This document shows, in pieces, positions 24,592-63,998 of a DNA stretch of 64,000 bases (position 1 is the first letter of the stretch; the number at the start of each line of letters is the position of its first letter). A program made the translations under genes and the position numbers. The DNA comes from Rhodocytophaga rosea (GTDB lineage: Bacteria; Bacteroidota; Bacteroidia; Cytophagales; 172606-1): assembly GCF_010119975.1 (NCBI RefSeq), contig NZ_CP048222.1, positions 2,808,501-2,872,500 of the forward strand, in the 5' to 3' direction. Under the pieces are notes generated by a model. It ran no database searches. It was not told the origin of the DNA and saw only the letters and a program-made list of their open reading frames with translations.

Positions 24592-27500
24592 TTATTTTAA
24601 GGTACGGATGTAGGAAAGCAAATCGGCAACTTGCTCATCGGTATATCCATCGAGTAACCCCTTCATCATAAAAGAGCGGCCTCCCAAAAAACCCTGGCTT
24701 CTGATAGTAGCGGCTTCAATGAAAACTTTGCTCCCTCCCATCAATGCAATAGTAACCCCTTTATCGTCTTTTTTGACTAAATATCCTTCAACACTGCTCC
24801 CATCTTTTTTGCTCACCCGGTATACCGCATAATTGGACTCTACAGCTGCATCCGGATCAAGAAGGGCCGTAAGAAGGGCTTCGTTTTCACGGTTGGCCGA
24901 ACCATCTAAAGCAGGGGCAATATCTTGTCCGGTGTTGCCCACTTTGTGGCACTGGAGGCAGGTCTGAAAGAGCATTTTTCCTTGTGTAGCATTCCCTGCT
25001 TTTTTCTCTGCAATGGTCATATATTTGGCGAATTTAGCTGTAAAAACGGCCTTTTGTTCTTCCTCGCGCTTTTTTACAGCTTCAAACAGTGCAATACTAC
25101 GCCTGTCCGATCGATTGCTCGTATGAATCCGCTCTGCCGTTGAGAGATCAAAGGCGGCCAGATCAATATATTTTTTATCGTACAGATTCATCAGCAAACC
25201 AGCACCTTGTTTTGAGGCTGACAACGCACTGGCAGCGCTTTTCTTTTCAGCCTGGCTAAGTTTTGGAATCCATAGCTGAATAGTTTGGCTCCCCTGTTGC
25301 GCATTAGCCTGAATGAGGTTATGCAAAGCAGCTAACCGCATGTCGAAGCTATATTTTTCATTTTGAAATACCTGAGTAAATACTTGCTGATTGGCTGGCA
25401 GATCATTCTCCAGTGCCTTTAAAGCGAGTTCGAGGGTTTTGTCGCTTATTTGATCATTAATTAAGGCAGTAATTCTCTCACTTGATTTTTCAATATTAAA
25501 TCGTCCGATGGCATCCAGGGCAAGATTAATCTCAGGCTCTGTACCATTCGCAAGCAGGTGGCTTACAGGTACCTGTAGAAGTGCAGAAAAGGCAGGCGAT
25601 TGAACCTGGGCTTGATTTTCTACGGCCATTTTTGTATAGGCGGCTGCATGGGCAGGATTCTGGAAGGTAGGTTTCACCGCCTCGTAAATTTCTTTGTTAT
25701 CCAGCATATTAGCTATGCCAATGAAAAGAGATTCATCAAGCTTTGTAATATTCGATTTAGGCCATAGCCTTAAAAAAGCTGTTTCTTTTGGCCCTTTTGG
25801 TAACGCCTGAATAGCCCAAAGCAGATTTTCAACAGGAACGTTACTGGCAGTCTTAGAATTGAGATATGCTTGCAATTCATCCGGATATTGTTCCAAGGCT
25901 CTCCGGGCAAGAAAACGCTCAAATTTTCTTTCGTAGGCTCCACCCATCGCATTCCCTGGAAGTTCAGCTTTACAAGCCCGAACCAATAGATCAAGAACAG
26001 CAGCATCAGACTTTTGCATTTCTGTTAAAGTCCGGAGTACCTGAGCACGGACAATCGGATTTTTATCTTCAATTAATACTTTTATTTCGGCAGGCAGGGT
26101 GGCAGGGGTGAGCGAGAAACTAGTTAAAGAACGGACTGCTTCACACCGGAGATAATCGAGCGGAGACTTTAGCAGGAAAGAGAGCAGTTTGGCATCATAA
26201 TGCTTAATCCCTTCTAAAGACCACAGGGCATGGATACGGGTCACTTCATCTGCAGATCCATCAGAAGCTAAGGCTATCAGCGAGGAAGCTAATGCTTTGG
26301 TTTCTGACATTGGCCGGTCTGAAATCTGATGCCAGGCAGCCCGCTTAGCCCAAAGTGATGGGGATTTCAGAAAATTTACAAGATCTTCCGTTTTAACAGT
26401 AAGGAAATTGGGGATATCTCTTGACTTTTGGCTGATGTGACGGATACGCCAGATTCTGCCATGGGACTTGTCCCGGTCCGGATGCGTTGTGGGGAGTTCA
26501 TTGTGAGAAATAATCTTGTTATACCAGTCTGCAATATAGAGGCATCCATCCGGACCAAATTCTATATTCACCGGCCGGAACCAGTCGTCTTTGGAGGTTA
26601 ATAAATCTGGCAAATGCTCCATTTTTACACTTCCGTCTGCATTCCTTATGATTTTAACAGCATTGATCGTATTGGTAATGGGATTGGCAAGAAATGCGAC
26701 ATTCTTCCATACTGCCGGAAAAGTTCCTGATTCATCGTCAGGAAAGGCAGTGCCGGAAATTCCGGTCCCTCCCACACGAAAGCTATGAAGTTCTGGCATC
26801 CAGGGCTGATAGGAACGCAGGCGAACATTGCCAATTCCCGGAAATCCTGTGCCTGGTTCCATCGGAGTAACCGCATATCCTAAATCGTTTGCTTCAGACC
26901 CATACCATTGTCCATTACGGCGGAGCTGAAATCCCCAGATATTATTGAGGCCGGAACTCACAATTTCCAGCTGTTTGGCATCCAGAGAAAAGCGAACAAT
27001 TTTACTGTAGTCAACGCTCAATTTAACCTTGCTCTGCAAAGAGGTAACTTCCCCTTTATTGAGGGCTCCATGGCTAAAGTGAATCCAATTACCTGGCGCC
27101 CTTACCAGGCTGTGCGACATGGTATGCGTATCCGTAAAACCAAACCCGGTTAACATAGGAATGCGTTGATCTGCTTTGCCATCCTGATTGGTATCTTTTA
27201 GAAAAAAAAGCTCAGAGCCCTGTGCAACGTAGGCACCATCTTTATAAGGCATAATACTTTGTGGAATAGTAAGACTATCCGCCCAAACGGTGGTTTTTAC
27301 CGGAGCTTTATTATAAAAACTGGAAAGAATAAGGATCTTGTCTATCCCTTTGGTCTTACCCTGATAAAGATCAAGGATACGCTTGAAGCTGGGATGGTTC
27401 TTCTGAGCCTGTTGGTCATTCATCAAATTTAATAAATCATCCCATTGAATGTCAGCTATCGGGTCGAGTGGATACATCTGAGCGGTTTGAGTCCAGAGTC

Positions 27501-27726
27501 TGCCTGAGTCATCAAAAGTAAGATCGATGGGGTTGATCACGCCCTCCCTTTCACTGGCGACAAGTTCAACAATAAAACCCTCTGATACGGTGAATCCTGC
27601 CATTTCTTCTTCGGGCGTATTGGCCTGATTGCGGATAGAATGCGTTTTTTTCTGGGCAAGCAGTGAGGGAGCAGAAAACAAGCCTGCCAGAAGCAAAAGT
27701 GTACCTGCTATACTTTTGAAATTCAT
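24592..27726 (-). CDS. PVC-type heme-binding membrane-bound dehydrogenase-like protein (copy A)
   Basis: The 1044-residue exported protein has a signal peptide ending at LLAQ (residue ~24). A six-bladed propeller domain (about 40-440) like that of PQQ/soluble glucose dehydrogenase relatives has the anchor FTVSEGFIVELVASE, a calcium-type loop KDTNQDGKADQ and the closing FGPDGCLYIADWYN...HGRIWRI. HEAT-like helices fill ~450-880. A cytochrome c domain follows with heme motif CLQCH at 923-927 and a likely Met ligand in RSFMMKG. These proteins, widespread in Planctomycetes and Cytophagales, are thought to oxidise sugars or related compounds in the periplasm; no substrate is proven. Unlike copies B and C it has no SGNH-like partner. 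It lies next to the esterase and rhamnosidase genes. Confidence 0.92.
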   Translation of the reverse strand: MNFKSIAGTLLLLAGLFSAPSLLAQKKTHSIRNQANTPEEEMAGFTVSEGFIVELVASEREGVINPIDLTFDDSGRLWTQTAQMYPLDPIADIQWDDLLNLMNDQQAQKNHPSFKRILDLYQGKTKGIDKILILSSFYNKAPVKTTVWADSLTIPQSIMPYKDGAYVAQGSELFFLKDTNQDGKADQRIPMLTGFGFTDTHTMSHSLVRAPGNWIHFSHGALNKGEVTSLQSKVKLSVDYSKIVRFSLDAKQLEIVSSGLNNIWGFQLRRNGQWYGSEANDLGYAVTPMEPGTGFPGIGNVRLRSYQPWMPELHSFRVGGTGISGTAFPDDESGTFPAVWKNVAFLANPITNTINAVKIIRNADGSVKMEHLPDLLTSKDDWFRPVNIEFGPDGCLYIADWYNKIISHNELPTTHPDRDKSHGRIWRIRHISQKSRDIPNFLTVKTEDLVNFLKSPSLWAKRAAWHQISDRPMSETKALASSLIALASDGSADEVTRIHALWSLEGIKHYDAKLLSFLLKSPLDYLRCEAVRSLTSFSLTPATLPAEIKVLIEDKNPIVRAQVLRTLTEMQKSDAAVLDLLVRACKAELPGNAMGGAYERKFERFLARRALEQYPDELQAYLNSKTASNVPVENLLWAIQALPKGPKETAFLRLWPKSNITKLDESLFIGIANMLDNKEIYEAVKPTFQNPAHAAAYTKMAVENQAQVQSPAFSALLQVPVSHLLANGTEPEINLALDAIGRFNIEKSSERITALINDQISDKTLELALKALENDLPANQQVFTQVFQNEKYSFDMRLAALHNLIQANAQQGSQTIQLWIPKLSQAEKKSAASALSASKQGAGLLMNLYDKKYIDLAAFDLSTAERIHTSNRSDRRSIALFEAVKKREEEQKAVFTAKFAKYMTIAEKKAGNATQGKMLFQTCLQCHKVGNTGQDIAPALDGSANRENEALLTALLDPDAAVESNYAVYRVSKKDGSSVEGYLVKKDDKGVTIALMGGSKVFIEAATIRSQGFLGGRSFMMKGLLDGYTDEQVADLLSYIRTLK

Positions 27727-34375: not shown

Positions 34376-36634
34376 CTATACCAGTGGACCCTTACCTTGA
34401 AGGAACGGCTGGGTATATTCCCGCTTCCCTGTGGCCTTGTATATAGCGTTTGCCAGCGCTCCAAAAATGGGTGGAAACAAGGGTTCTCCCAGACCAGTGG
34501 GCTCCACTTCACTTTTTACAAAATGTACTTCAATCGCCTTAGGTGCTTCGCTATGCCGGATCATGCGATAGGTATGGAAATTATTCTTCTGGGGCACTCC
34601 CTCTTTAAAAGTCATTTCTCCATACAGGGCATTTCCTATCCCATCTATAATGGCCCCTTCGCCCATATTAGCAGCTGCATCCGGATTTACCACAATGCCA
34701 CAGTCAACGGCTGCATACACTTTCTCCACAATCGGTTTATCTTCCTTCATCGACAGGTCAATCACCTCCGCTACGTAGGTATTATGACAGAAGTAGGCCG
34801 AAACGCCCCGGTGGACATCCTTGGTATCCTTTTTCCAATTCGACTTATCTCTCACCAGTTTCAATACGCCTGCATAGCGGTCGGGGTCATAATCATTGTC
34901 TTTACCTACCGGATTTTTCTTGGCGCGCTCTAACAGTTCCAGACGAAACTCTATGGGGTCCTTACCAGCCAGTTCAGCCACTTCGTCCAGGAAGGACTGC
35001 TCTGCCCCACCCAGGAAATTGGACCTGGGCGCCCGGAATGCGCCGATGGTGATATTAGAATTCAGCACCCATTCTTCGGCCAGGTAATTATCCACTGCAC
35101 CTGCCGGAAAACGGTTTTGGGAAAAGCCCAGCGGACCTTCCGGAATACCTCCTGCTTTTACCTGATAGGCAATCAGATTGTTATTTTCATCCAGAGCTGC
35201 TTTGTAGGTGGCTGTGTAGGTAGGCCGGTAAATGCCATAGGTCATATCATCTTCCCTGGTGTACATGAGTTTGACCGGGGCATTGAGTTTCTGGGAAATA
35301 GCCGCTGCTTCTACCAAGTGGTGTCCATACGCACGTTGACCAAAGCCTCCGCCCATCCTGGCTAACTTGATGTGAATCTTTTCTTTGGGCAAACCCAGCC
35401 GGGCCGTCAGTGCTTGCATGATGAACTCTGGTGCCTGAATAGGGCCAATGAGTTCTGCTTTGTCTGCGGTAACATGCGCATAACAGTTGACAGGCTCCAT
35501 GCAGTTGTGGGCAAGGAATGGTGCTGTATAGGTCCGCTCAATCACTTTTGCCGCTTTTTTAAAGGCTACTTCCGGATTGCCATCTTTGCGAAGCTCTTTC
35601 CCGGGTTTTTTTGCCATTTCGGCCATCTTCGCCTGATGCCCCTCGCTGCTCTCCAGTCCAGCAGGAATGGTAACGGTCTGTTTGCCACCTCTACCAGCTA
35701 CTGCAATCGTCGTGTCAGCTATTTTTTCCCATTCTACTTTCAAGGCTTTTTTGGCGTTCATTACCTCCCAGGTAGTATTACCCACTACTACCACAAGTTC
35801 TGTGAAACTGGTGGTATCAAACCCGTTTCTCTCGTAATCATCTGCAAGGGTTTTAATAATAAACACATCCTTGATGCCGGGCATAGCTTTCGCTGCTTTG
35901 TCATCTACTGATTTCACTTTTAATCCGAAGGCAGGCGGATGCACCATCATAGCAATGAGCATTCCTTCCTTCTTGTAATCCATAGTAAACAAGGGTTTAC
36001 CAGTCACAATATTGAGTCCTTCTACATTTCTTTTCGAGTTGCCAATAATCTTGTAATCCTTGCTGTTTTTGAAGGGCACTTCTTTTGGTACCTCAAGTCC
36101 GGCAGCTTTAGAAGTCATTTCACCATAGCTTGCTTTTTTGCTACTTCCTTTATGATGCAGAATTCCATTCTCGGTAGTGATTTCCCCGGCAGGCACCTGC
36201 CATGTTTGTGCGGCGGCTTCAATAAGCATATGACGGGCGGTAGCTCCTGCCGTCCGGAGAGGTTTCCAGGCGGCCCGCATCGCCTGACTTCCCCCGGTAA
36301 ACTGGCGTTCGAAGCGTTCGGGGAAAAAGTCAGCCTGTTCTACTGTAACGTTTTTCCAGTCTACGTCCAGCTCTTCTGCCAGCATCATGGGAAGCGATGT
36401 TTTTACGTTGGATCCAAATTCGGGGTTAGGGGCCATTAGCGTAATAGCTCCATTATCTGCAATTTTGATGTAGCTATTTAGCTCAAACCATTCTTTGGGA
36501 AGGGTGGCTACCTCTTCAGGCGTAGATGGGTTACATCCGGCCAGCCAGCTAAAGCTGAGCATCATCCCCCCGCCGGCAAGAGCAGATACTTTTAAAAAAG
36601 ATCTGCGGTTTATCGTTTTTTCTATGGGTTGCAT
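34376..36634 (-). CDS. Molybdopterin-binding large subunit of a periplasmic xanthine-dehydrogenase-family oxidoreductase
   Basis: The 752-residue chain belongs to the isoquinoline 1-oxidoreductase beta/aldehyde oxidoreductase group, which hydroxylates N-heterocycles or oxidises aldehydes with a Mo-cofactor. A Tat signal (INRRSFLKVSALAGGG) precedes LAGC, so it may also be a lipoprotein. MoCo-contact segments are visible: RMGGGFGQRAYGHHLVEAAAIS, GAFRAPRSNFLGGAEQSFLDELA-like helix, and near the end the catalytic-Glu region VEPTGLGEPLFPPIFGALANAIYKATG. The small iron-sulfur subunit gene lies 20 bases upstream; no FAD subunit is present, as usual for the two-subunit type. Electrons would pass to a periplasmic carrier, not identified here. 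Confidence 0.93.
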   Translation of the reverse strand: MQPIEKTINRRSFLKVSALAGGGMMLSFSWLAGCNPSTPEEVATLPKEWFELNSYIKIADNGAITLMAPNPEFGSNVKTSLPMMLAEELDVDWKNVTVEQADFFPERFERQFTGGSQAMRAAWKPLRTAGATARHMLIEAAAQTWQVPAGEITTENGILHHKGSSKKASYGEMTSKAAGLEVPKEVPFKNSKDYKIIGNSKRNVEGLNIVTGKPLFTMDYKKEGMLIAMMVHPPAFGLKVKSVDDKAAKAMPGIKDVFIIKTLADDYERNGFDTTSFTELVVVVGNTTWEVMNAKKALKVEWEKIADTTIAVAGRGGKQTVTIPAGLESSEGHQAKMAEMAKKPGKELRKDGNPEVAFKKAAKVIERTYTAPFLAHNCMEPVNCYAHVTADKAELIGPIQAPEFIMQALTARLGLPKEKIHIKLARMGGGFGQRAYGHHLVEAAAISQKLNAPVKLMYTREDDMTYGIYRPTYTATYKAALDENNNLIAYQVKAGGIPEGPLGFSQNRFPAGAVDNYLAEEWVLNSNITIGAFRAPRSNFLGGAEQSFLDEVAELAGKDPIEFRLELLERAKKNPVGKDNDYDPDRYAGVLKLVRDKSNWKKDTKDVHRGVSAYFCHNTYVAEVIDLSMKEDKPIVEKVYAAVDCGIVVNPDAAANMGEGAIIDGIGNALYGEMTFKEGVPQKNNFHTYRMIRHSEAPKAIEVHFVKSEVEPTGLGEPLFPPIFGALANAIYKATGKREYTQPFLQGKGPLV

Positions 36635-36654
36635 AGTTGAGAAGAGTTAGGTGA

Positions 36655-37125
36655 TTAGGATTTAGCAGCGCTTGACTTAGCAGCTGTTTTGATGGCAGCC
36701 TTGATCCGCAAGTAAGTAGCACAGCGGCAGATATTGCCATTCATGGCCGATTCAATCTCCGCATCGCTAGGCGTGGGATTGCTCTTTAACAAGGCACTAG
36801 CGTTCATGATCTGACCGGCCTGACAATAGCCGCACTGGGCCACATCATGTTCCAGCCAGGCTTTCTGTACCGGGTGATCACCTTTCTCTGACAAGCCTTC
36901 AATGGTTGTGATGGACTGATTGCCTACCCCTGATACGGGCAGTTGACAAGAGCGGGTAGCTATCTCGCCCAGGTGGATGGTGCATGCGCCACATTGGGCA
37001 ACACCACAGCCGTACTTGGTGCCAACCAGGTTCAGGTGGTCACGCAGGACCCATAACATGGGGGTAGCAGGGTCCACATTCACCTGGCTTTGTTTTCCAT
37101 TGATGTTTAAGTTGAAGATGGCCAT
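36655..37125 (-). CDS. (2Fe-2S) small subunit of the molybdenum hydroxylase
   Basis: The 156-residue protein carries two iron-sulfur clusters: the plant-ferredoxin-type cluster ([17 protein letters not shown] with the fourth Cys in TRSCQLPV) and the helical cluster domain ([17 protein letters not shown] and [15 protein letters not shown]). It transfers electrons from the MoCo subunit encoded 20 bases downstream. There is no own signal peptide, so it would be carried through Tat with the large subunit. It is the first gene of the pair; a 280-base gap separates it from the frameshifted cupin gene. Confidence 0.95.
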
Positions 37126-41569: not shown

Positions 41570-42432
41570 GAGAATGTTTTGAAATATTATTCGGTTTTTC
41601 TTTTGAGCAGAGTATCAATAAAGGCTAATTGTAGCATGGCTTCCGAACTTTCTGTGTTTTTTTCAAAATCACGGCTCAACCTACGCTTAAAATTGAGCCA
41701 TCCGTAGCTACGTTCCACTACCCAACGGCCCCCTGCCGGGACAAAGCCTTTCACGCTTTCAGGCTTTTGTACAATTTCTACACTCCATCCATATTGTTTT
41801 TTCACTTCTTCCACAAAAGTCTCTGTGTAGCCATTATCTGCTTTCAGGGTATGCAGGCGGGCGGACTTGCCCTTCAACTTAGCTGCTAACTCATATCCTG
41901 CTGTGGTGTCTGATATATTAGCAGCTGTAATATGCACCGCCCAGGGGATACCTAAACAGTCCACAGCCAGATGTCTTTTTCTGCCATTCACTTTTTTATT
42001 GCCATCTATGCCTTTATCCTGACTGGTAAATTGTATAATCTTAACACTTTGGCTATCAATGGCCAACACGCTTGGCAGGGCTTGTCTGCCTGCTTTTTTT
42101 CTTTCTCTGCCTGCTAAAAAAGCTAACAACTCTTCAATAATGCCCCGCTTTTTCCACTGCCTGAAATAATAGTAAATGGTTTGCCAGGGTGGGTACTTAC
42201 TTTCCATATTGCGCCATTGGCTGCCCGTAGTTAGCAGCCAAAGCAGTGCATTGATTATCACCCGTTTTTCATGTTTAATCTTTCTTTGGTTATCAATTAT
42301 TTCCTTGATAACTTCCCATTCAGGGTCAGTGAGCGCAGAGAATTTTTCTTGCATAAACTTGATGATTAGACACCTCAAGTTTACTCACTGATTCTTTCTT
42401 TTACCCTATTTTTATTCTTCCAAAACGTTCTC
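41570..42432 (-). mobile_element. IS5-type insertion sequence, 863 bp
   Basis: The left end GAGAATGTTTTGAAA (from 41570) and right end, read inward, GAGAACGTTTTGGAA (from 42432) are imperfect terminal inverted repeats. Both flanks are TTA (41567-41569 and 42433-42435), a 3-bp target duplication. One transposase gene fills the element. Confidence 0.93.
41587..42354 (-). CDS. IS5 family transposase
   Basis: A 255-residue DDE transposase. An N-terminal DUF4096-type domain (FSALTDPEWEVIKEIIDNQRK...LLTTGSQWRNMESKYPPWQTIYYYFRQW) precedes the catalytic residues: Asp in VLAIDSQSVK, Asp in LKADNGYTETFV, and Glu in WVVERSYGWLNFKRRLSRDFE. The start at 42354 (MQEKFSALTD) matches the family. The frame is intact, so the element could be active. 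It is antisense to the NTF2-like gene it disrupts. Confidence 0.95.
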   Translation of the reverse strand: MQEKFSALTDPEWEVIKEIIDNQRKIKHEKRVIINALLWLLTTGSQWRNMESKYPPWQTIYYYFRQWKKRGIIEELLAFLAGRERKKAGRQALPSVLAIDSQSVKIIQFTSQDKGIDGNKKVNGRKRHLAVDCLGIPWAVHITAANISDTTAGYELAAKLKGKSARLHTLKADNGYTETFVEEVKKQYGWSVEIVQKPESVKGFVPAGGRWVVERSYGWLNFKRRLSRDFEKNTESSEAMLQLAFIDTLLKRKTE

Positions 42433-42633: not shown

Positions 42634-45600
42634 CTATTCCACTTTTAGTACTCCTTTCATCATTTTCCAATGTCCGGGAAAAGAACAGATAAACGGATAC
42701 GCTCCTGGTTTTTCAGGCGCTTTAAAATCTAACTGAAACGTTTTTCCGGCATTTATAAGTGGCGTAGCAACTAATACTTCCGGCAAATCTGGAACAAAAT
42801 TTCTTTCATAGCCATCTTTTAAACCAGCCATAGCATCTGCTGCTTTTCCTACTTTTTCTGCACTACCGGGTTTAACAATCACTACATTATGAGCCATCTG
42901 ACCCCGGTTTTGAAAGATCAGTGAAACAGACTTACCGGCAGGAATTGTAATGAGGGTTGTATCAAAGAGCATTTTACCCGGAAGGGCAGTTAAATGAATA
43001 ATTATTTCATTATTTTTGGCGCCTGAAGCAGTTTTATCAACAGGTGCTTCATTAACTTGGGAAAGTTTCTGATACCTTTCCCTAAACTCTTGTACTGCAG
43101 GCGACTCTCTCAATTGCTCATATTCATCTTCTGAAAGTGCACGATAGGAGAAGGCATGCCACAAGGGATCGTCCTTAACAAAGTATTCTTCTGCGTTTAA
43201 TGCTTTCTGAGAGGCAAGCGGCTTTAACAGGCGTTCTGCTTTCGTTGGTTCCTCAGAAAGAAACTGCTTGTCTTTTTTAAACATTTCTATCCAGACAGGT
43301 TTCAGGTGTTTAAAAGATTCTTCCAGGGCATAGTCAATATACTCGTCGGTAGGAATTTCAGTTGTTTTAAGCAAGGCATTTACAGAGGCTTCTGAAGAAA
43401 AATGGCTTAATGCAGCTATAGCTTCCAGGCGGACTCTGGGCGCTTTGTCTCTCGACATGGTAATCAGTTTCTCTTCTGCATTCTTAATCCGATCGTTCCA
43501 ATAAAATAACACCCTGGTGGCAGCGGCTCTGATGTGGTGATCTTTACTATCAAGCAGGTTTTCAAGCAAACTTTCCTCCACCTCGTTAAACTGCTGAAAG
43601 ACCCACAGCGCTTCCAGTTTATGATACTCATGGTCAGTATGCGCAGAATCAAGCGCTGCGACCCATTCTCTGAGTACCGGAATCACTTTTTCAGCAGGAA
43701 AGTCTCTGAGGCGTATTCTTGTCCGGTATCTTGCCCTGTCTTCATATACCTTTAACTCATCCAGTAGTTTTTCCACACTTAGCCTGGTAAGATCAACCGG
43801 TTTAAGCACAGGTTTATCTTTATAAGTTATTCTCCAGATCCTCCCCCGGGTATGATCTCTTTGCGGGTCCCGAAAATTCTGTTCTCCATGTTGTATCACC
43901 GCATCGTACCAATCAAGCAGATACAAAGCGCCATCAGGACCAAACTTAAGATCTACCGGACGGAAGTTAGGATCTTTGGATTGTAATAAGGGTTCAACTT
44001 CATGGGCTACTATCCCACTGCCTTCTTCTGAGACTTTATGTTGTTTGATGCCCTGAAATCCAATAAAAGTATTAAAAAGAACATTTCCTTGGGCACTTTC
44101 CGGAAAATGCCGGCTAGAAACAATTTCTACCCCACAGGTTTTCGGGCGTTTAGAAATGGTCAGAAAATCCTTCATCTGCTTATGTTTAATGGGGTAGTTG
44201 ATAGCCACCGTCATGGGAGGAGCAAAATAATTCATACCTGTGGATACATCAGCAATTAGGTGGGTACCATTACGGGTAAACACCTGTCCCCAGGGGTTGG
44301 CATAGGGGAAAGAGATATACGGGTCCAACTTCATAGTACGGGGCTCATACCGCCAGGTGATGCCGTTAGCGCCTCTTTTTGGGCCATAAGGTGTTTCTAT
44401 CTGGGAATGCAAAAAAGTACCCTCATGCATATATAAAGCTCCATCCGGTCCCCAGGTATAAGCGCTGATCGCATGGTGGGAATCCTCTGTACCAAAGCCT
44501 TTCAGGAGTGTTTTCTTCAGGTCAGCCTTTCCATCTCCATTGGTATCTTTCAAAAAAACAAAATTAGGCGCCTGTGTTACATACACACCTCCATCCCCCA
44601 ATTCAAATCCCAGGGGCAGATACAAACTGTCTGCAAATACAGTATGTTTATCTGCTTTTCCGTCGCCATTCGTATCTTCCAGAATGATAAGCTTGTCGTT
44701 GGGCGGATTACCTGGGGAATAATGCGGATAAGAAGGCATGGTAGCCACCCACATTTTTCCCTGTGAATCAAAGGTAAAAGCTACCGGATTGGGAATAGGT
44801 AAATCCACCTCTGAAGCAAACAATTCTATCTGGTACCCTTCCTGCAAGATAAATTGTGACTTATCTGGTTGGAGCATACTGGATGAAGACTTAACAGGTT
44901 GGGATGCCTGTTCAGGGTTGCTACTGATAATACTTTGTAGCTTATCCATGTTAAGCTCTGTTGCATCCCGGCTTCCTTCCCAGATTATGCTATCCAGTCG
45001 GAGTACCATTTGGTCGATCTTTCGGAATTCATCTGGCAAAGCCTGGCCACCGGCCCATTCTCTACGCCTGCCATAAATGTACTCTCCGTTTGAAGCTTTA
45101 AACTTGTAAAAGAAATGTTGATTTTTCGTTGCAATCACCTTCTTTAACTGGTTGGAATGTCTATCTTCCGGCCAGGAAGAAACGGGAAAGTCTAAGGCTT
45201 TGGCCATGAGTTCACTTACCACTTTATAGCCTTTGCCTGTGAGATGAATGCCATTGATGGTCAGCGAATCGCTGCCCTTCATCAGCTGAGTAGTAGGTTC
45301 GTACAAGTTAATGAAAGGAATAGTAAGTTCTTTCCCCACTTCTTGCATAGCCTGGGTATAGAGTTTCAGGCTTTCATTATGCTGGCCCGGATCGGGTAAT
45401 TGTCCTCCCAGCGTTTCATGGGCTATAGGTGATATAAGAACGATCTGGGGAGTAGACACTCTATTATAAGTCTGGTTCTGTAAATGGCTGAGAAACACCT
45501 TCAATCTTTCTCTAAAGACATGCACACTATCAGGGCCCTTAAATGCTTCATTTAAGCCAAAGCAGGCAAAAATAACATCTGCTTGTTGCTGATGCAGATG

Positions 45601-45891
45601 CTCATCCATTGTTCCGAAGTTTACCGGTCTGGGTTGTAAATTAACTTCATCGCCACTCCAGGCAAGATTTCTTATCCGAAGATTATGCTTAGGGAAACTT
45701 TTATATAAAAGTGTTTCAAGGTAGGTATGCTCTCCAAGATCCAGAGCAAAAGTATTTCCAATAAACACGATGGTATTATCTGGCTTGGGAGTAAACTTAT
45801 ATGCCTTCTCTTTTTTTGAACAGGAAAAAAGAAACAGAATAAACAGAAGAATAAAAAAGAGAAAAAGGAGTAATACTGGTTTGATATTCAT
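42634..45891 (-). CDS. SGNH-PVC dehydrogenase-cupredoxin fusion (copy B)
   Basis: A 1085-residue lipoprotein (signal FILLFILFLFSC). Residues ~35-310 are an SGNH/GDSL-like domain: VFIGNTFALDLGEH (block I with no GDS serine), FACFGLNEAFKG (block III) and TINGIHLTGKGY (block V, NGIH in place of DxxH). A PVC-type propeller follows (FILQEGYQIELFASE; calcium-type loops LEDTNGDGKADK and KDTNGDGKADL; FGPDGALYLLDWYD...RGRIWRI), then HEAT-like helices. The last ~115 residues are a cupredoxin: FQNRGQMAHNVVIVKPG supplies one His, and FICSFPGHWKMMKG the Cys-His-Met of a type 1 copper site. There is no CxxCH heme motif. Start at 45891 chosen for the signal peptide. Substrate unknown; electrons would pass to copper instead of heme. 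Confidence 0.9.
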   Translation of the reverse strand: MNIKPVLLLFLFFILLFILFLFSCSKKEKAYKFTPKPDNTIVFIGNTFALDLGEHTYLETLLYKSFPKHNLRIRNLAWSGDEVNLQPRPVNFGTMDEHLHQQQADVIFACFGLNEAFKGPDSVHVFRERLKVFLSHLQNQTYNRVSTPQIVLISPIAHETLGGQLPDPGQHNESLKLYTQAMQEVGKELTIPFINLYEPTTQLMKGSDSLTINGIHLTGKGYKVVSELMAKALDFPVSSWPEDRHSNQLKKVIATKNQHFFYKFKASNGEYIYGRRREWAGGQALPDEFRKIDQMVLRLDSIIWEGSRDATELNMDKLQSIISSNPEQASQPVKSSSSMLQPDKSQFILQEGYQIELFASEVDLPIPNPVAFTFDSQGKMWVATMPSYPHYSPGNPPNDKLIILEDTNGDGKADKHTVFADSLYLPLGFELGDGGVYVTQAPNFVFLKDTNGDGKADLKKTLLKGFGTEDSHHAISAYTWGPDGALYMHEGTFLHSQIETPYGPKRGANGITWRYEPRTMKLDPYISFPYANPWGQVFTRNGTHLIADVSTGMNYFAPPMTVAINYPIKHKQMKDFLTISKRPKTCGVEIVSSRHFPESAQGNVLFNTFIGFQGIKQHKVSEEGSGIVAHEVEPLLQSKDPNFRPVDLKFGPDGALYLLDWYDAVIQHGEQNFRDPQRDHTRGRIWRITYKDKPVLKPVDLTRLSVEKLLDELKVYEDRARYRTRIRLRDFPAEKVIPVLREWVAALDSAHTDHEYHKLEALWVFQQFNEVEESLLENLLDSKDHHIRAAATRVLFYWNDRIKNAEEKLITMSRDKAPRVRLEAIAALSHFSSEASVNALLKTTEIPTDEYIDYALEESFKHLKPVWIEMFKKDKQFLSEEPTKAERLLKPLASQKALNAEEYFVKDDPLWHAFSYRALSEDEYEQLRESPAVQEFRERYQKLSQVNEAPVDKTASGAKNNEIIIHLTALPGKMLFDTTLITIPAGKSVSLIFQNRGQMAHNVVIVKPGSAEKVGKAADAMAGLKDGYERNFVPDLPEVLVATPLINAGKTFQLDFKAPEKPGAYPFICSFPGHWKMMKGVLKVE

Positions 45892-46152
45892 TAGATCACA
45901 GGGCTTTGCCAAAATTGCTTTGCATGGTGAAGGTAAAATAGGCAAATCTTTTTGTATTCGAAAGAACTGGAAACACTCAGATTACTGTGGATGTTTAGAT
46001 AGAGCTTAGCTAAGTTATTTTTATTCTCCTTATTATTTAATTTAAACTTGTCTTGATCCTTGGAAGAGATTGCCAAAGTTAGTTCTCCTGTTTTCAGACA
46101 GATGCTGGCAATGAAAACCAGAATCTTTAGAACTTTAAATCTTTAATTACTC

Positions 46153-52202: not shown

Positions 52203-53104
52203 AGAAGGTGTTTGGAAATAGAAGAGAGGTTTTTTAGGATTTTGGAAAAAGACTATCAGCCGGTAACTTGAGTTTGCGAAACAAAAAGTTACTCCATGTA
52301 TGAATTACATGAAAATCTGACTGATAGTCAATGGCAAGTTATTAAAAACATAGTAGATGATGGACGAAAGAGAAAAGTTTGTTTAAAGCGTGTAGTGGAT
52401 GCCTGCCTGTGGCTGACCAGAACCGGAAGTCAGTGGCGGAATTTGTCTCAGACCCATTATCCTGTATGGCAAACGGTAGCTTATTATTTTTATAAGTGGC
52501 AAGATAATGGGGTCTGGCAACAAGTGCGGGCGATGTTAGTGAAAAAGGAACGAGAAAGACAGGGACGACAAGCAGAGCCTTCCAGAGTGGCTATTGATAG
52601 CCAAAGTGTTAAACAGTGTGGTTGCTTTTCTGAGCAGGTAGGTGTAGATGGTAATAAGAAAATAGATGGTAGGAAACGGCATTTGGCGGTTGATAACTTA
52701 GGACTTCCCTGGGCTGTTTATGTAGGAGCTGCTAATGAGTCTGATGCCGTAGCAGGCTTTGAATTATTACCACAACTCAAAAGCTGTAGACGGCTAAGTT
52801 TGATCTGTGCCGATGCAGCTTATAAAGGTGAGTTTGTCTCTTATGCTTATTATTATGGGTGGAAAGTAGACATCTCACAAAAGCCTCCTTCCAAGCAAGG
52901 ATTTATTCCTCAAAAGGGAAGGTGGCAAGTGGAAAGATCTGGACCTGCTACGAGTGTGCATCGGCTCCATGCCTGGCTGAATCATTATCGAAGATTAGCT
53001 AAAGATTATGAAAGAACTCCTGCTTCTGCTGTCTGTTTTATAGAATTAGCTTTTATCAATATCATTTTATCAAAAATACCTTAACTTATTTCCAAACACC
53101 TTCT
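52203..53104 (+). mobile_element. IS5-type insertion sequence, ~902 bp
   Basis: Perfect 20-bp inverted repeats (52201-52220 and 53087-53106) bound the element, beginning TAAGAAGGTGTTTGGAA. If TA is the duplicated target (52201-52202 and 53105-53106), the element spans 52203-53104. It is a different family member from the element at 41570: the end sequences and transposase differ clearly. It sits between the AraC gene and the NADH dehydrogenase gene and disrupts no recognisable gene. Confidence 0.9.
52296..53084 (+). CDS. IS5 family transposase with an in-frame insertion near the catalytic Glu
   Basis: A 262-residue transposase with NLTDSQWQVIKNIVDDGRK, TRTGSQWRNLSQTHYPVWQTVAYYFYKW, first Asp in VAIDSQSVK and second Asp in LICADAAYKGEF. 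In the element at 41570 the third motif reads VERSYGWLNFKRRL. Here it reads VERS, then nine extra residues GPATSVHRL (52941-52967), then HAWLNHYRRLAKDYE. The extra segment is 27 bases in frame and lies directly after the catalytic Glu, where spacing to the basic residues is normally fixed. This may reduce or abolish activity. Confidence 0.9.
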   Translation: MYELHENLTDSQWQVIKNIVDDGRKRKVCLKRVVDACLWLTRTGSQWRNLSQTHYPVWQTVAYYFYKWQDNGVWQQVRAMLVKKERERQGRQAEPSRVAIDSQSVKQCGCFSEQVGVDGNKKIDGRKRHLAVDNLGLPWAVYVGAANESDAVAGFELLPQLKSCRRLSLICADAAYKGEFVSYAYYYGWKVDISQKPPSKQGFIPQKGRWQVERSGPATSVHRLHAWLNHYRRLAKDYERTPASAVCFIELAFINIILSKIP

Positions 53105-59401: not shown

Positions 59402-62400
59402 CTATTGTCCCATAATCAGCCTTGTCTGAGCACCCGAATTACCACTTTCTTGTAGTTGCACACTTATTGGTTCTTTTTGACGTACGGCCCTATCGATAAC
59501 CAGGGTAATTTGATGGATTCCCTGGGTAAATTCTATCATTATTCTCTGTCCAGTAAATTGAAGAGGTGTTTGTCCTGCCCATCCACTTATACCAGTAGCA
59601 GTGTTCATTAGAAGAGTTACATTCCCTTTAGTCAACACTTCAATATCAAATTTAACCACACTGTATTTCTTGTTTGCATTTACCTCAATTATGGGCAATT
59701 CTTCAACAGGCAGATCTCCAGCCACTTTGCTGTACACCGGTATAGAGGGAACGGTTGTATTTACCTTTAAAAGATACTCCAGGCCCTCAGCAGAAATCTT
59801 TTTTGCAAGATCTTTACTGGCAGGTATTGTTGCCCATCGTCTGACAAACTGGGCTGTAGGAACACGGTAGTTTCCCGATTCCCCTAGCTTTGACAAAAAG
59901 CCTATTAAATTATTAAACTCTTCTTTTTCTAAACCTGCTGTTAATCCGGGAGGCATGAGTGAGCCTGGTACTTTCTCTAATGTATTGATCTGATTTTTGG
60001 CAATGGTAACACTTTTACCCCCTGCATCCCGCATAATGATCTCCGATGTGCCATTACTTACCAGGTAGCCCATTAGTTCACTGCCATCTTTTTTAACTAC
60101 TTTTTGAAGTTCATACCCTTCTTTGATAGAATTTGAGGGATAAAGTACAGAATTTATAATGGTTTCAACCGGTGAACTGGTACCTAAACTGCTCAGATCC
60201 GGGCCAATCAAACCGCCTGCGCCGCCAATCGCATGGCAACTCACACAATTAGTTTTCCGGAATACGGCTTCCCCTAGCTCGTAATCAGCATTGCCTCTTA
60301 TTTCTATGGCTTGTCTGTTGATATCCTGTTTACTGAGTTGCTGAGGCATACGTTGGGCAGGAAGAACTCCGCCAGAGGCTTCCAGTGCCTGTGTCATCAA
60401 TTGTACATCTTCATTTTTATTCCGGCCCCAGGGAATTTGCCGGTCAAAACTTGGCCGGATAGCTTTAGCCGTAGGTGTAGGTATCTTTTTAGCCATCAGT
60501 TCCTGGGCGAGTAATTGTACGCCTTGTTTCTGCGCCAGAAACGCCCTAAAAAGCTCAGAAACATCTGTTTGTTCCGGCATATTTCTTAATAACGCGCCAG
60601 CCAAACGGGCAGATTCTGATACATTTAAGGGTACTAATTGCGCAGTAGCTAAAATCTTTGTCTCAATCGATTCTTTTCCACTGGCCAGATCAATCAACAA
60701 CTTTTCGGCTTTGTTTTTATCTAAGTTCACCAGAGCAGCTAAAGCAGCCCGTTTGATATTTTTATCTTTTTTAGCAATAAGACTGCTTACTTGATCACGC
60801 ATTTCTTCCAGGTGCCAATAACCAATTAATCGCAACGCACCAATAACTAGAGTTTCATCCCCGCTTTTTATAAAACTACCAATTCTATTCAGGTCTTTGT
60901 CAGGCTTTGCCTCTCTTTGTTGCGCCGCTTGAGCTAAAGCAGCCAGCTGGGCTGATACATTTTTATTTTGTGCGGCATATCCTGTAACGGCCATATCAAA
61001 TAAGGTGTTCAGGTCAGCCGGCTTTCCCCATTTTGCAATAGAATTAAGCACATCCTTTTGATATTCTTGTGGCAATTCATTTTTTTGATACAGTTTTACA
61101 AGAGCTGTAACAGCATCCGGATCATTCATTGACTTCAGCGCAAAAGCAGTTTGTCTGGCATTGCCTAAAAATTCCGGCTGGGTTTTTAAGCGTTCCATTA
61201 CCCAGGGTTCCAGTTCCCGCATCGTATACCACAGAGAATAATCCAGAAATTCATCCATAGGGTAATCCAGTGCGGTTAAAGCCATACGTGCCGCTTCTGC
61301 CGTTTTTAGATTACGCAAAGCAATTACCGCTTCCAGCCGTACCTGCGGATGATCGTCTTTCACAGCATTGGCAAGCAGAGTAGCTATATTAGCAATTTTG
61401 TGATGCCATTGTTGAAGCACTCTTACTCCGGCCGCACGGGCATGCGGATTACGGGCATTGAGCAGGCTCAGCAGCAAGGGTTCATTCACTGCATCCAGTG
61501 ACTGTTGCACCCAGAGAGCTTCCAGTAAATGATGTTCGTAATCAGGGTCTTTTTTATCCAGTCTACTTGTCCATTTTTGTAAGGCCGGAATCACTTCTTT
61601 GGCACCTCGTTCCTTTAGTACTTGCCTGGCTTGCGCACGGGCCCAGTCTTCCGGCAGTTTCAAGGTTTCTAATAGTGCCTGTACTGAGGCTTTACTTAGC
61701 TGTGTTTTTTTGACCAATGGACGGTTTTTAGCAGTAATTCGCCAGATACGGCCATGCTGCTGGTCGCGGCGTGGATCATGAAAATCTACTTCTCCATGTT
61801 GAATAATGGGATTGTACCAGTCTGCTACATATATGGCTCCATCTGGGCCCATTAAAATATCCACCGGCCGGAAAGCCACATGATCGGTCCACAAGACATC
61901 TTCTACCTGCTTGGAAGCGTATCCACTGCTTTGTTCCTGTAGCGTAAACCGGTTTATTCTGTTCGCCCGGAAATCGTTGGTAATTACACTTCCCAGCCAT
62001 GACTCTGGCATATGCCTCCCTGAAACTACATCAAGACCACTATGTTTGGGTTGGCCCGGATTTAATCCACGGATAAGCCGCTCAGCACCTGGCGAAGTAA
62101 CAAAGGTTGCCCCCGGAAAAGCATAATTAATGCCTTCATTTCCTGCCCCATCAGTCAGAAAGGATTGCCCCCACCGGTCAAACTGCAAGCCCCATGGATT
62201 GATCAAACCTTTGGCATAAATATTTAAATCAAGTGTTTTAGGCTGCAATTGCCAGACACCTCCGCCTTCCAGACGTTTTACACCCATAGGTGTTTCTATA
62301 TGGCTGTAGATATAAATGGACTGATTAAAATAAAGTTTTCCTTCCGGCCCCCAGCGGAACGTATGAATAAGATGATGGGTATCAGCCGTTCCAAATCCTT

Positions 62401-62956
62401 TTAATACCACCCGCTTCTTGTCTGCTTTTCCATCTCCATCCGTATCTGAAAGATGTAAAATCTCGGTAGAATTCGCTACATATACCCCTCCATCTCCGGG
62501 CAGGATACCAGTAGGTGTGAGCAAGCCCTCTGCAAAAATGGTTGATTTATCTGCCTTTCCATCTCCATCGGTATCCTCCAATACATAGATCTTATCATTG
62601 GCCTCTTCACCGGTCTTCAGATGGGGATAGGCTGTACTACTGACCACCCACAATCTGCCCTCTGCATCCCAGTTCATTTGAATCGGTTTTACCACCATAG
62701 GCTCAGCAGCAAACAGCGTAACCTCAAACCCTTCTGACACTTGAAACGATGCCAGTTCTGTCTCAGGATCAGGATCGTCCATTCTGTTATCCTGGGTGAT
62801 CATGGCAGTAGTAAAGATGATCAAGGGAATACTAATAAGAGCAGTAAAAACTTTCACCACAAGCTTAGAAGAGGAAATCCCTTTCGTATCCCGCGCTTTT
62901 TTTTCATCTATAGAAGCACTAAACATGGACCAGACAGAAGTTTTGTTTTCTTTCAT
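59402..62956 (-). CDS. PVC-type heme-binding membrane-bound dehydrogenase-like protein (copy C)
   Basis: The 1184-residue exported protein has an N-terminal membrane segment (VVKVFTALISIPLIIFTTAMI, uncleaved or signal). The propeller follows (FQVSEGFEVTLFAAEPMVVKPIQMNWDAEGRLWV; calcium-type loops LEDTDGDGKADK and SDTDGDGKADK; MGPDGAIYVADWYN...HGRIWRI), then a HEAT-like solenoid (~450-880). A cytochrome c domain has heme motif CVSCH at 904-908. About 160 further residues form a beta-rich C-terminal domain absent from copy A. It starts 10 bases after the SGNH-like gene, so the two are one operon. Overall order matches copy B except for the electron acceptor. Confidence 0.92.
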   Translation of the reverse strand: MKENKTSVWSMFSASIDEKKARDTKGISSSKLVVKVFTALISIPLIIFTTAMITQDNRMDDPDPETELASFQVSEGFEVTLFAAEPMVVKPIQMNWDAEGRLWVVSSTAYPHLKTGEEANDKIYVLEDTDGDGKADKSTIFAEGLLTPTGILPGDGGVYVANSTEILHLSDTDGDGKADKKRVVLKGFGTADTHHLIHTFRWGPEGKLYFNQSIYIYSHIETPMGVKRLEGGGVWQLQPKTLDLNIYAKGLINPWGLQFDRWGQSFLTDGAGNEGINYAFPGATFVTSPGAERLIRGLNPGQPKHSGLDVVSGRHMPESWLGSVITNDFRANRINRFTLQEQSSGYASKQVEDVLWTDHVAFRPVDILMGPDGAIYVADWYNPIIQHGEVDFHDPRRDQQHGRIWRITAKNRPLVKKTQLSKASVQALLETLKLPEDWARAQARQVLKERGAKEVIPALQKWTSRLDKKDPDYEHHLLEALWVQQSLDAVNEPLLLSLLNARNPHARAAGVRVLQQWHHKIANIATLLANAVKDDHPQVRLEAVIALRNLKTAEAARMALTALDYPMDEFLDYSLWYTMRELEPWVMERLKTQPEFLGNARQTAFALKSMNDPDAVTALVKLYQKNELPQEYQKDVLNSIAKWGKPADLNTLFDMAVTGYAAQNKNVSAQLAALAQAAQQREAKPDKDLNRIGSFIKSGDETLVIGALRLIGYWHLEEMRDQVSSLIAKKDKNIKRAALAALVNLDKNKAEKLLIDLASGKESIETKILATAQLVPLNVSESARLAGALLRNMPEQTDVSELFRAFLAQKQGVQLLAQELMAKKIPTPTAKAIRPSFDRQIPWGRNKNEDVQLMTQALEASGGVLPAQRMPQQLSKQDINRQAIEIRGNADYELGEAVFRKTNCVSCHAIGGAGGLIGPDLSSLGTSSPVETIINSVLYPSNSIKEGYELQKVVKKDGSELMGYLVSNGTSEIIMRDAGGKSVTIAKNQINTLEKVPGSLMPPGLTAGLEKEEFNNLIGFLSKLGESGNYRVPTAQFVRRWATIPASKDLAKKISAEGLEYLLKVNTTVPSIPVYSKVAGDLPVEELPIIEVNANKKYSVVKFDIEVLTKGNVTLLMNTATGISGWAGQTPLQFTGQRIMIEFTQGIHQITLVIDRAVRQKEPISVQLQESGNSGAQTRLIMGQ

Positions 62957-62966
62957 CTCTTGTAGG

Positions 62967-63998
62967 CTATTTTACTGGGGTAAGTTGATAGGTGATTTCC
63001 TTTGGCGCCCGGTTTATTGCAATTTGTCCTTCAAGCCAGGTGATAATTATACTCAAATCTTCCAGTCCCTTTGTGTGCCTGCCTTGTTCGTGGGACCGGA
63101 AACCAAGAATATAGGTTTTGTTTTGCGGCCGGTATTGGTGGAAATACAACTCGTTCTTTTTAATGATCATCTCCCGGAGCTGACTTGCCTGGCTGTAGGA
63201 GCCGCCTTGCTTGATCTCTACTCCTTCATTCCATTGTTTGGCAGATGCAGTTACCACCTGGAAGTTTTCAGTTGACAGGGTGTATATTCCCTTTTTAAGG
63301 CCATTGATTTTTATGATACGAGTTTTTTCTGCTCCTTCTTCTTGCCTGGGTAAGGGTAATGGCAGCAGGGATTCACTGATAGTAAATGTTAAATTACCAT
63401 TGTTCTTCCCCCAATTCAAAACCTTAATAGTAGCCGTTGCCTCTTGTTTAGCGATATCTATGCTGGCCGTTTCAGTTCGTGTGGATAAACCTAATTCTTT
63501 CTCAACAACAGAAGCCAGATAATAGTAGCCGGTTTCATTTAAATGAAAGCCATTGTCTGATAATTTGATGATTTTATTCTTCTCCAGAACAGGTGTATAT
63601 ATATTTAAATACTGCTTGCCACGCTCCTCAGCTATTTTAGCTATAGCAGCAGTATACAGCTCCAGCATCGAATTACGCTTTCCTATGTCTTCACCAGATT
63701 CAACCTCCATCAGGGGAATAGCAGACAAAAGAATGGTTTTTGCACCCAGCTGGTCTATTTTGTCAATCAATTTATTCAATCCTTCCTTAAACCGGGAAAG
63801 GCCTTGCTCTCCTTCCAGCGCTTCCATGGCTCCATAGGCAATAAAAACAACCGTAGGCTGGGCTTTCGTTAGTTGTTCGATGAGGAGATCATACGTTGTG
63901 GGAGGAGAAATATAACTACGTGCTTCTCCCCAAACGGTATCTCCTGTCCATCCAATATTCCGGAAAGTAAAATTCCGGTTAGGCCATCTGGTCGTGAG
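62967..63998 (-). CDS. SGNH/GDSL-like protein, 5' end outside window
   Basis: The frame stays open to the right edge of the window, so the ATG at 63825-63827 is internal. Visible blocks are NIGWTGDTVWGEAR, VVFIAYGAMEALEG (block III with no GxND) and LSDNGFHLNETGYYYL (block V as NGFH). The C-terminal part contains LYFHQYRPQNKTYILGFRSHEQGRH, which matches FFYKFKASNGEYIYGRRREWAGG in the fusion protein at 42634. It is therefore the free-standing form of that fusion's N-terminal domain. It lies 10 bases upstream of PVC dehydrogenase C. Catalytic activity is doubtful because the Asp of the DxxH motif is replaced. Confidence 0.88.
   Translation of the reverse strand, partial: LTTRWPNRNFTFRNIGWTGDTVWGEARSYISPPTTYDLLIEQLTKAQPTVVFIAYGAMEALEGEQGLSRFKEGLNKLIDKIDQLGAKTILLSAIPLMEVESGEDIGKRNSMLELYTAAIAKIAEERGKQYLNIYTPVLEKNKIIKLSDNGFHLNETGYYYLASVVEKELGLSTRTETASIDIAKQEATATIKVLNWGKNNGNLTFTISESLLPLPLPRQEEGAEKTRIIKINGLKKGIYTLSTENFQVVTASAKQWNEGVEIKQGGSYSQASQLREMIIKKNELYFHQYRPQNKTYILGFRSHEQGRHTKGLEDLSIIITWLEGQIAINRAPKEITYQLTPVK

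Follow-up and report, generated by a model that had tools for sequence, protein, structure and literature searches.

Organisation of the locus

The window, that is, the whole 64,000-nucleotide stretch of Rhodocytophaga rosea DNA that was analysed, encodes three related propeller proteins, here called A, B and C (Table 1). Protein B is built, in order, of a lipoprotein-like signal (recognised by eye, from the ATG at 45891), a GDSL-like domain, a six-bladed propeller, HEAT repeats, a linker and a cupredoxin. In the numbering of the listed open reading frame, Pfam places the GDSL-like domain at residues 72-242, DUF7133 at 364-710, the HEAT repeats at 792-877 and the copper-binding domain (plastocyanin/azurin family) at 987-1103. 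B passes the cut-off of the NCBIfam family model TIGR02604 (238.2 bits versus 122.2) but, despite the family name, contains no CxxCH motif, and a match to the NCBIfam model TIGR02603 is also absent. A and C are PVC-type CxxCH proteins that match both TIGR02604 and TIGR02603; they share the propeller and HEAT repeats with B and carry a heme site, which in each lies within the TIGR02603 domain, while B has neither the heme site nor TIGR02603. The heme motifs that the first-pass annotation had read in A and C, and their absence from B, were thus borne out. An SGNH-like domain, fused to the N-terminus in B, occurs as a gene of its own directly upstream of C.

Table 1 Features of the window (positions are those of the window).
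Feature	Position	Strand	Evidence
Protein B, open reading frame as listed	42634-45945	-	Intact; listed start is TTG at 45945
Protein B from likely ATG (codon 19)	42634..45891	-	1085 aa
GDSL/SGNH-like domain of B	45220..45732	-	PF13472, 4.4e-11
Six-bladed propeller of B, DUF7133 / TIGR02604	43816..44856	-	PF23500, 2e-74
HEAT repeats of B (HEAT_2)	43315..43572	-	PF13646, 7.3e-09
Auracyanin/azurin-type cupredoxin of B (126 aa), predicted	42637..43014	-	PF00127, 1.6e-12
Predicted copper ligand His (MAHN)	42889..42891	-	Aligned to auracyanin A His; invariant in 26/26
Predicted copper ligand Cys (CSFPGH)	42685..42687	-	Auracyanin A alignment and 26-row alignment
Predicted copper ligand His (PGHW)	42670..42672	-	Auracyanin A alignment and 26-row alignment
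Predicted axial ligand Met (second Met, KMMKG)	42658..42660	-	Aligned to auracyanin A Met; invariant in 26/26
Copy A, heme-ended paralogue	24592..27726	-	TIGR02603, 106.5 bits (cut-off 68.15); CLQCH at residue 923
Copy C, heme-ended paralogue	59402..62956	-	TIGR02603, 106.4 bits (cut-off 68.15); CVSCH at residue 904
Separate SGNH-like gene directly upstream of C	62967..63827	-	PF13472, 2.1e-06, 28.8 bits, under the cut-off of 32.9

A model of full-length B was of moderate confidence (pLDDT 74.1, pTM 0.69). Its low values at residues 899-920 and 938-960 (numbered from the ATG), in the stretch that joins the HEAT repeats to the cupredoxin, would fit a loose tether. Confidence for the cupredoxin was lower in this model (blocks at 45-83) than when the domain was modelled alone. 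A transposase-like open reading frame (41587-42378, minus strand) lies directly downstream of B and one of similar type on its other side (52296-53084, plus strand), both named from the sequence by eye. The window also holds two-subunit molybdenum hydroxylase-type genes with Fer2/Fer2_2 and MoCoBD domains (34376-37125, minus strand), the large subunit of which starts with a twin-arginine-like signal, again by eye.

A predicted type 1 copper site at the C-terminus

The C-terminus of B matched Copper-bind (PF00127) at 48.2 bits (cut-off 21.2), far beyond chance, and the first match among solved structures by sequence was auracyanin A (PDB 2aan, 7.7e-18), with whose ligands the His, Cys, His and Met of B pair one to one. 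The score against the azurin equivalog TIGR02695 was 48.3 bits, below its cut-off of 105.1. When modelled alone (AlphaFold2 on a 26-row alignment of cupredoxins), the domain was predicted with high confidence (pLDDT 97.3, pTM 0.90) to have a Greek-key cupredoxin fold, and auracyanin A was again the top match, both in Foldseek (E 3.1e-13) and in VIA-align (Z 20.5, rmsd 1.2 over 119 residues). All four ligands are invariant in the 26 aligned cupredoxins, as is a Met two residues ahead of the first ligand His. Alignment and model together confirm the C-terminus of B as an auracyanin/azurin-type cupredoxin with four predicted type 1 copper ligands, as the first-pass annotation had proposed; it had named a different fold or a missing ligand as grounds for rejection, and neither was found. 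Two details of the proposal were corrected. Its Cys-x4-His spacing stands, but the axial Met lies one residue beyond the one it had chosen, giving C-x4-H-x3-M, and the chosen position varies among V, I, L, N and M across the other 25 rows. The domain, which it had bounded at 42980, starts near 43014.

Auracyanins A and B and azurin have the same fold as B and the same His-Cys-His-Met ligands and spacing. However, these are free carriers, whereas the cupredoxin of B is the C-terminal domain of a 1085-residue protein.

Copper-ended and heme-ended paralogues in the genome

The TIGR02604 profile gave 39 matches in the genome, some of which are two pieces of one gene. Nine of these lay outside the fetched loci; two (L080 and a gene in L264) were added later and the other seven stand outside the counts given here, which cover 22 family propeller genes (20 from fetched regions, one of them C, together with A and B). 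A CxxCH motif follows the propeller in 16 of the 22, and a cupredoxin was found in four: at the C-terminus in B and L068 and near the N-terminus in L062 and L063. The N-terminal domain of L062 passes Copper-bind (1.6e-5), while L063 was assigned solely from the motif that it shares with L062. The genome also encodes two smaller and more distant propeller-cupredoxin proteins, at 4.48 and 5.37 Mb, and a copper form confined to one protein, as first supposed, was therefore not upheld. End-module and domain labels of relatives come from purpose-built profiles; A, B, C and eight relatives were also run against Pfam/NCBIfam as a check.

Some members differ in other respects. L062 (~2.14 Mb) and L063 (~0.034 Mb) have very similar TIGR02604 propellers, the N-terminal plastocyanin-like motif CSIPGHRAAGM and no CxxCH; L080 has neither a heme nor a cupredoxin module; and L073 (~1.38 Mb) extends over two overlapping frames and is apparently broken.

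The nearest relative of B in the genome is L072 (7.44 Mb), which is 41% identical over residues 109-907 and has the same GDSL-propeller-HEAT chassis, ending in a ccoP/cbb3-like cytochrome c. Its propeller is 48% identical to that of B, compared with 41% for C and 30% for A; over full chains, B and the heme forms are 35-38% identical. L072-type proteins share the order of B's chassis but differ from B at the His and Asp positions of the SGNH domain. A swap of modules between A, B and C had been proposed. The swap is real and recurrent (see below), but L072 against B is a cleaner example of it than A or C, and comparison with A and C alone was dropped because L072 is the closer relative.

Conservation in the order and gene neighbourhoods

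Matches to B at E <= 1e-60 were present in 113 of 390 genomes of the order, and from these 17 copper-ended and 12 CxxCH-bearing loci were read. One genome from another genus (G293) encodes a full-length orthologue, L101, that is 70% identical to B, and 16 further genomes encode proteins that are 48-51% identical overall and 52-57% identical in the matched segment. All 17 orthologues have the cupredoxin end CSFPGHWRVM and no CxxCH, while the 12 other loci from the same search (L118-L129) have a CxxCH near the C-terminus. The seven other genomes of B's family that were searched (G001-G007) yielded no copper-ended version of this chassis. That finding, together with the transposase-like frame just downstream, would suit a recent chimera or annotation artefact private to this genome, formed by chance fusion beside an IS element. 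The orthologues refute such an origin: the full-length protein in another genus and the same domain order in 16 genomes, along with cupredoxin-propeller loci in named genomes across the Bacteroidota and Verrucomicrobiota, leave its probability negligible.

Nine loci of copper-ended orthologues were listed, and Pfam was run on ten chosen neighbours drawn from six of these loci (L101, L134 and L135 lay outside the scan). The flanking genes encoded SusD (L130), alpha/beta hydrolases (L132 and L133), a GFO/IDH protein (L132), a sulfatase with GH88 (L137) and a sulfatase with a 3-keto-disaccharide hydrolase (L158). These neighbours would fit a role beside polysaccharide use. Sulfatase neighbours have been reported in a study of Verrucomicrobia for planctomycete-specific cytochrome genes of unknown function (PMC5615132), which form a different set of families from the TIGR02604 proteins. 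The gene immediately upstream of the copper form in L131 and L132, on the same strand, encodes a heme-ended paralogue.

The exchange of plastocyanin for cytochrome c6 is a precedent for alternation of carriers with metal supply. By analogy, copper-ended and heme-ended proteins could be isozymes for one reaction whose expression alternates with the supply of copper or iron, as first suggested for B and its paralogues. Both modules are one-electron carriers and the same chassis occurs with either end in one genome. Indeed, a heme-ended chassis was also encoded in all 17 copper-bearing genomes (from the second match fetched) and, with this genome, in 18 of 18, although the 18 are not independent because 16 belong to one family. 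This coexistence gives no support to a choice by metal supply, and the heme-ended genes directly upstream in L131 and L132, which suggest co-expression there, speak against it. In addition, the low full-chain identity between B and the heme forms means that substrates may differ, and Planctomycetota use both modules in series (see below). Metal-responsive isozymes are accordingly quite improbable. The terms 'dehydrogenase' and 'same oxidation', as applied to these proteins, derive from names, and 'dehydrogenase' is unproven.

Wider distribution and recurrent exchange of the end module

A search of genome contigs with B alone gave no match, a search of plasmids likewise gave none, and a scan of contigs with the cupredoxin alignment gave matches, of which the best 80 loci were kept. 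Among these 80, 52 were ThuA-propeller-cupredoxin, 16 GDSL-propeller-cupredoxin, one propeller-cupredoxin and five propeller-cupredoxin-heme proteins, while the remaining six were cut by an end or showed no full propeller in the same frame. Copper ends occur on at least three types of chassis, and none of the 69 uncut copper-only propeller fusions among these loci contained a CxxCH. The five single-chain proteins with copper followed by heme (L166, L170, L182, L193 and L202, the last with a locus that ends at the contig end) come from records titled Planctomycetota or Planctomycetaceae. With curated models, L166 and L193 pass the TIGR02603 cut-off (79.0 and 86.5 bits for the two) and also match Copper-bind and F5/8 type C.

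For a tree of the propellers, rows cut by a locus end without a visible end module were left out. The resulting 161 propellers were then thinned, separately for each end-module label, at a threshold of 78% identity. This left 66 rows: 52 with a copper or heme label and 14 with neither module, the latter outside the count of changes. The tree required four changes between any-copper and heme-only forms. Starred branches force each of the four, and a single copper clade was rejected (p-AU 1.4e-65). It is a quick tree with long branches (L071 and others were flagged by the program), and its frequencies are not representative, the copper forms having come from the cupredoxin search and the heme forms mostly from this genome.

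In a more careful tree, built from 40 rows of B's wider clade, B grouped with L101 (100/98) within an 11-row copper clade (94/99). This clade was sister (83/86) to six rows comprising the five double-module proteins and one copper-only protein from the Acidobacteriota. A GDSL-heme clade (100/99) grouped with three copper proteins from the Verrucomicrobiota (95/92) and thus sits, heme-ended, among copper-ended relatives. Holding the heme-only members of the GDSL group together was not rejected (p-AU 0.060), so the number of changes within that group is unsure. A tree of the cupredoxins themselves had only 121 columns and eight of 71 inner branches starred, and no origin of the domain was drawn from it.

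The exchange between heme and copper is real and recurrent, and it extends more widely than the first-pass annotation could show. The first-pass annotation had further held that the cupredoxin of B replaces heme. A cupredoxin does stand where relatives carry a c-type heme, but the direction implied is unsupported: copper and heme clades are interleaved, Planctomycetota have both in series, and 'replaces' could run either way or represent loss from a two-module form. In one such history, the ancestor would have passed electrons from a cupredoxin to a TIGR02603 heme, and the lineage of B would have lost the heme, leaving copper as the exit. The five copper-then-heme proteins and the sister position of the double-module group to B's clade are in keeping with this sequence of events. 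However, the support of 83/86 is below the starred level and the root is unsure, copper-only members from the Verrucomicrobiota branch outside the sister pair, and a gain of heme in the Planctomycetota fits equally, so that this history is possible but rather doubtful.

The propeller and the SGNH-like domain

The top eight structural matches of the B propeller were of the PQQ sugar dehydrogenase type (Z 22.9 to 21.7), including AA12 enzymes (22.9), the PQQ-dependent sugar dehydrogenase 3a9g (22.6) and E. coli YliI (21.7), followed by hedgehog-interacting protein (21.5), sGDH (20.8) and DFPase-like propellers (~19.9). The model thus suggests a modest preference for PQQ sugar dehydrogenases over other propellers, in a comparison that barely covered folds outside the propeller. 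In a profile alignment with YliI (hhalign, E 2e-6, probability 89.4), the second His of an SHH motif in B falls on His147, which is probably equivalent to His144 of sGDH. The key residues of sGDH are His144, Arg228 and Asn229, the last two forming the Arg/Asx dyad at the PQQ ketones, and the catalytic His of TrAA12 is His153 (PMC6881810). By alignment, the catalytic His of the PQQ sugar dehydrogenases is therefore present in B, while the position of Arg228-Asn229 is occupied by Ala-Asn; the Arg was kept in three of 21 propellers. AA12 pyranose dehydrogenase, YliI and sGDH thus share with B a six-bladed propeller and the aligned His, but PQQ sugar dehydrogenases have the Arg of the dyad, whereas B has none and carries other domains. 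The predicted PQQ site of B is incomplete, with the His and Asn kept but the Arg replaced by Ala, and PQQ is a possible cofactor. PqqC had no match in the genome, but the control gave no match anywhere either, and the best PqqE match scored 71.9 bits against a cut-off of 381.35.

In the SGNH-like domain, block I of B reads GNT where GDS is expected. The catalytic Ser is absent from all 32 aligned rows (alignment A1), its position being held by Thr in the copper-ended rows (18/18) and Asn in the heme-ended rows (14/14), and an esterase role is unlikely because this residue is missing throughout. The DxxH block of the same alignment also differs between the groups: copper-ended rows keep the His and have Asn for Asp (18/18), while heme-ended rows have the Asp with Gln in place of His (14/14). 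This is a consistent split between copper and heme forms that lies outside the swapped module.

Proposed function

The evidence is best explained if B is a periplasmic oxidoreductase acting on the sugar side, in which a tethered cupredoxin does the job of the tethered cytochrome c of its relatives and the end module is exchangeable, a reading to which we give a probability of about 0.6. B would be periplasmic and probably lipid-anchored; the propeller would oxidise a substrate that is most likely a sugar or derived from one; and the type 1 copper may accept electrons from the propeller one at a time. It would then hand them on to another periplasmic protein, a carrier or an oxidase, such a separate acceptor being expected given that B itself lacks heme. 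The end module could be heme only, copper only or, in Planctomycetota, copper then heme. Loss of a terminal heme from a copper-heme ancestor, as set out above, is a version of this explanation and compatible with it. Sequence and structure prediction support the domain architecture, the set of four ligands, the lack of a heme, the conserved copper clade, the repeated exchange of end modules and the co-occurrence of heme-ended twins, and from these we infer a probable location, redox activity, sugar substrate and electron flow from propeller to copper, and the likely identity of the partner.

Several observations weigh against an oxidoreductase: the Arg of the PQQ dyad is absent, the fold preference is modest, and a heme-ended TIGR02604 protein, Lac161_ORF7 (TIGR02604-HEAT-cytochrome c), has been reported to have beta-galactosidase activity, hydrolysing lactose with a Km of 1.8 mM (PMC5342196). 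Together with the carbohydrate-related neighbours, the missing Arg and the lactose hydrolysis could mean that the propeller serves as a glycosidase or as a scaffold for binding, with a cupredoxin that merely binds or delivers copper. However, the chassis repeatedly bears two unrelated kinds of one-electron carrier, which a hydrolase would not need, and all four type 1 ligands are invariant, making this alternative unlikely.

If the oxidoreductase reading of B is extended to its relatives, the TIGR02604 propellers of the Bacteroidota, Verrucomicrobiota and Planctomycetota may form a plug-in system for the exit of electrons. One periplasmic chassis for carbohydrate-side oxidation would have its carrier exchanged among PVC-type heme, ccoP-type heme, auracyanin-type copper, N-terminal plastocyanin-like copper and copper plus heme in series, and genomes would keep several versions so that related oxidations feed different branches of electron transport. 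We regard this generalisation as tentative, with chances a little short of even.

Relation to known systems and implications for annotation

The copper nitrite reductases (CuNiR) offer a parallel, as the module tethered to their core may be either a cytochrome or a cupredoxin, depending on the member (PMC7201279). As in B's family, the three-domain enzymes combine one core with either redox module; however, that core is unrelated, and electrons enter it there but presumably leave it in B. For archaea that lack cytochrome c, blue copper proteins have been proposed as the electron acceptors of PQQ dehydrogenases (PMC7300363). The words 'fusion' and 'dehydrogenase' are absent from the main text of a census of azurins (PMC8779525). 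No fusion of a PVC propeller with a cupredoxin was found among the listed titles and abstracts of one open-access library, which is no proof that none has been published, and no reported activity for a copper-ended TIGR02604 member was found in the literature. The modules and the principle are known, and their combination here looks widespread and uncharacterised.

TIGR02604 proteins are numerous yet little studied, and literature under the family names was scarce in an open-access search. Matched pairs with different end modules offer a direct route to the function of these proteins. Reduction by a substrate of B's copper or of the heme in L072 would mark the family as redox; without it, the name 'dehydrogenase' falls. 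The names given to these proteins matter in another way, as the product name of the TIGR02604 model is 'PVC-type heme-binding CxxCH protein', and naming based on it would mislabel heme-free copper proteins. The cut-off of the model was passed by B, L068, L062 and L101, all of which are without a CxxCH.
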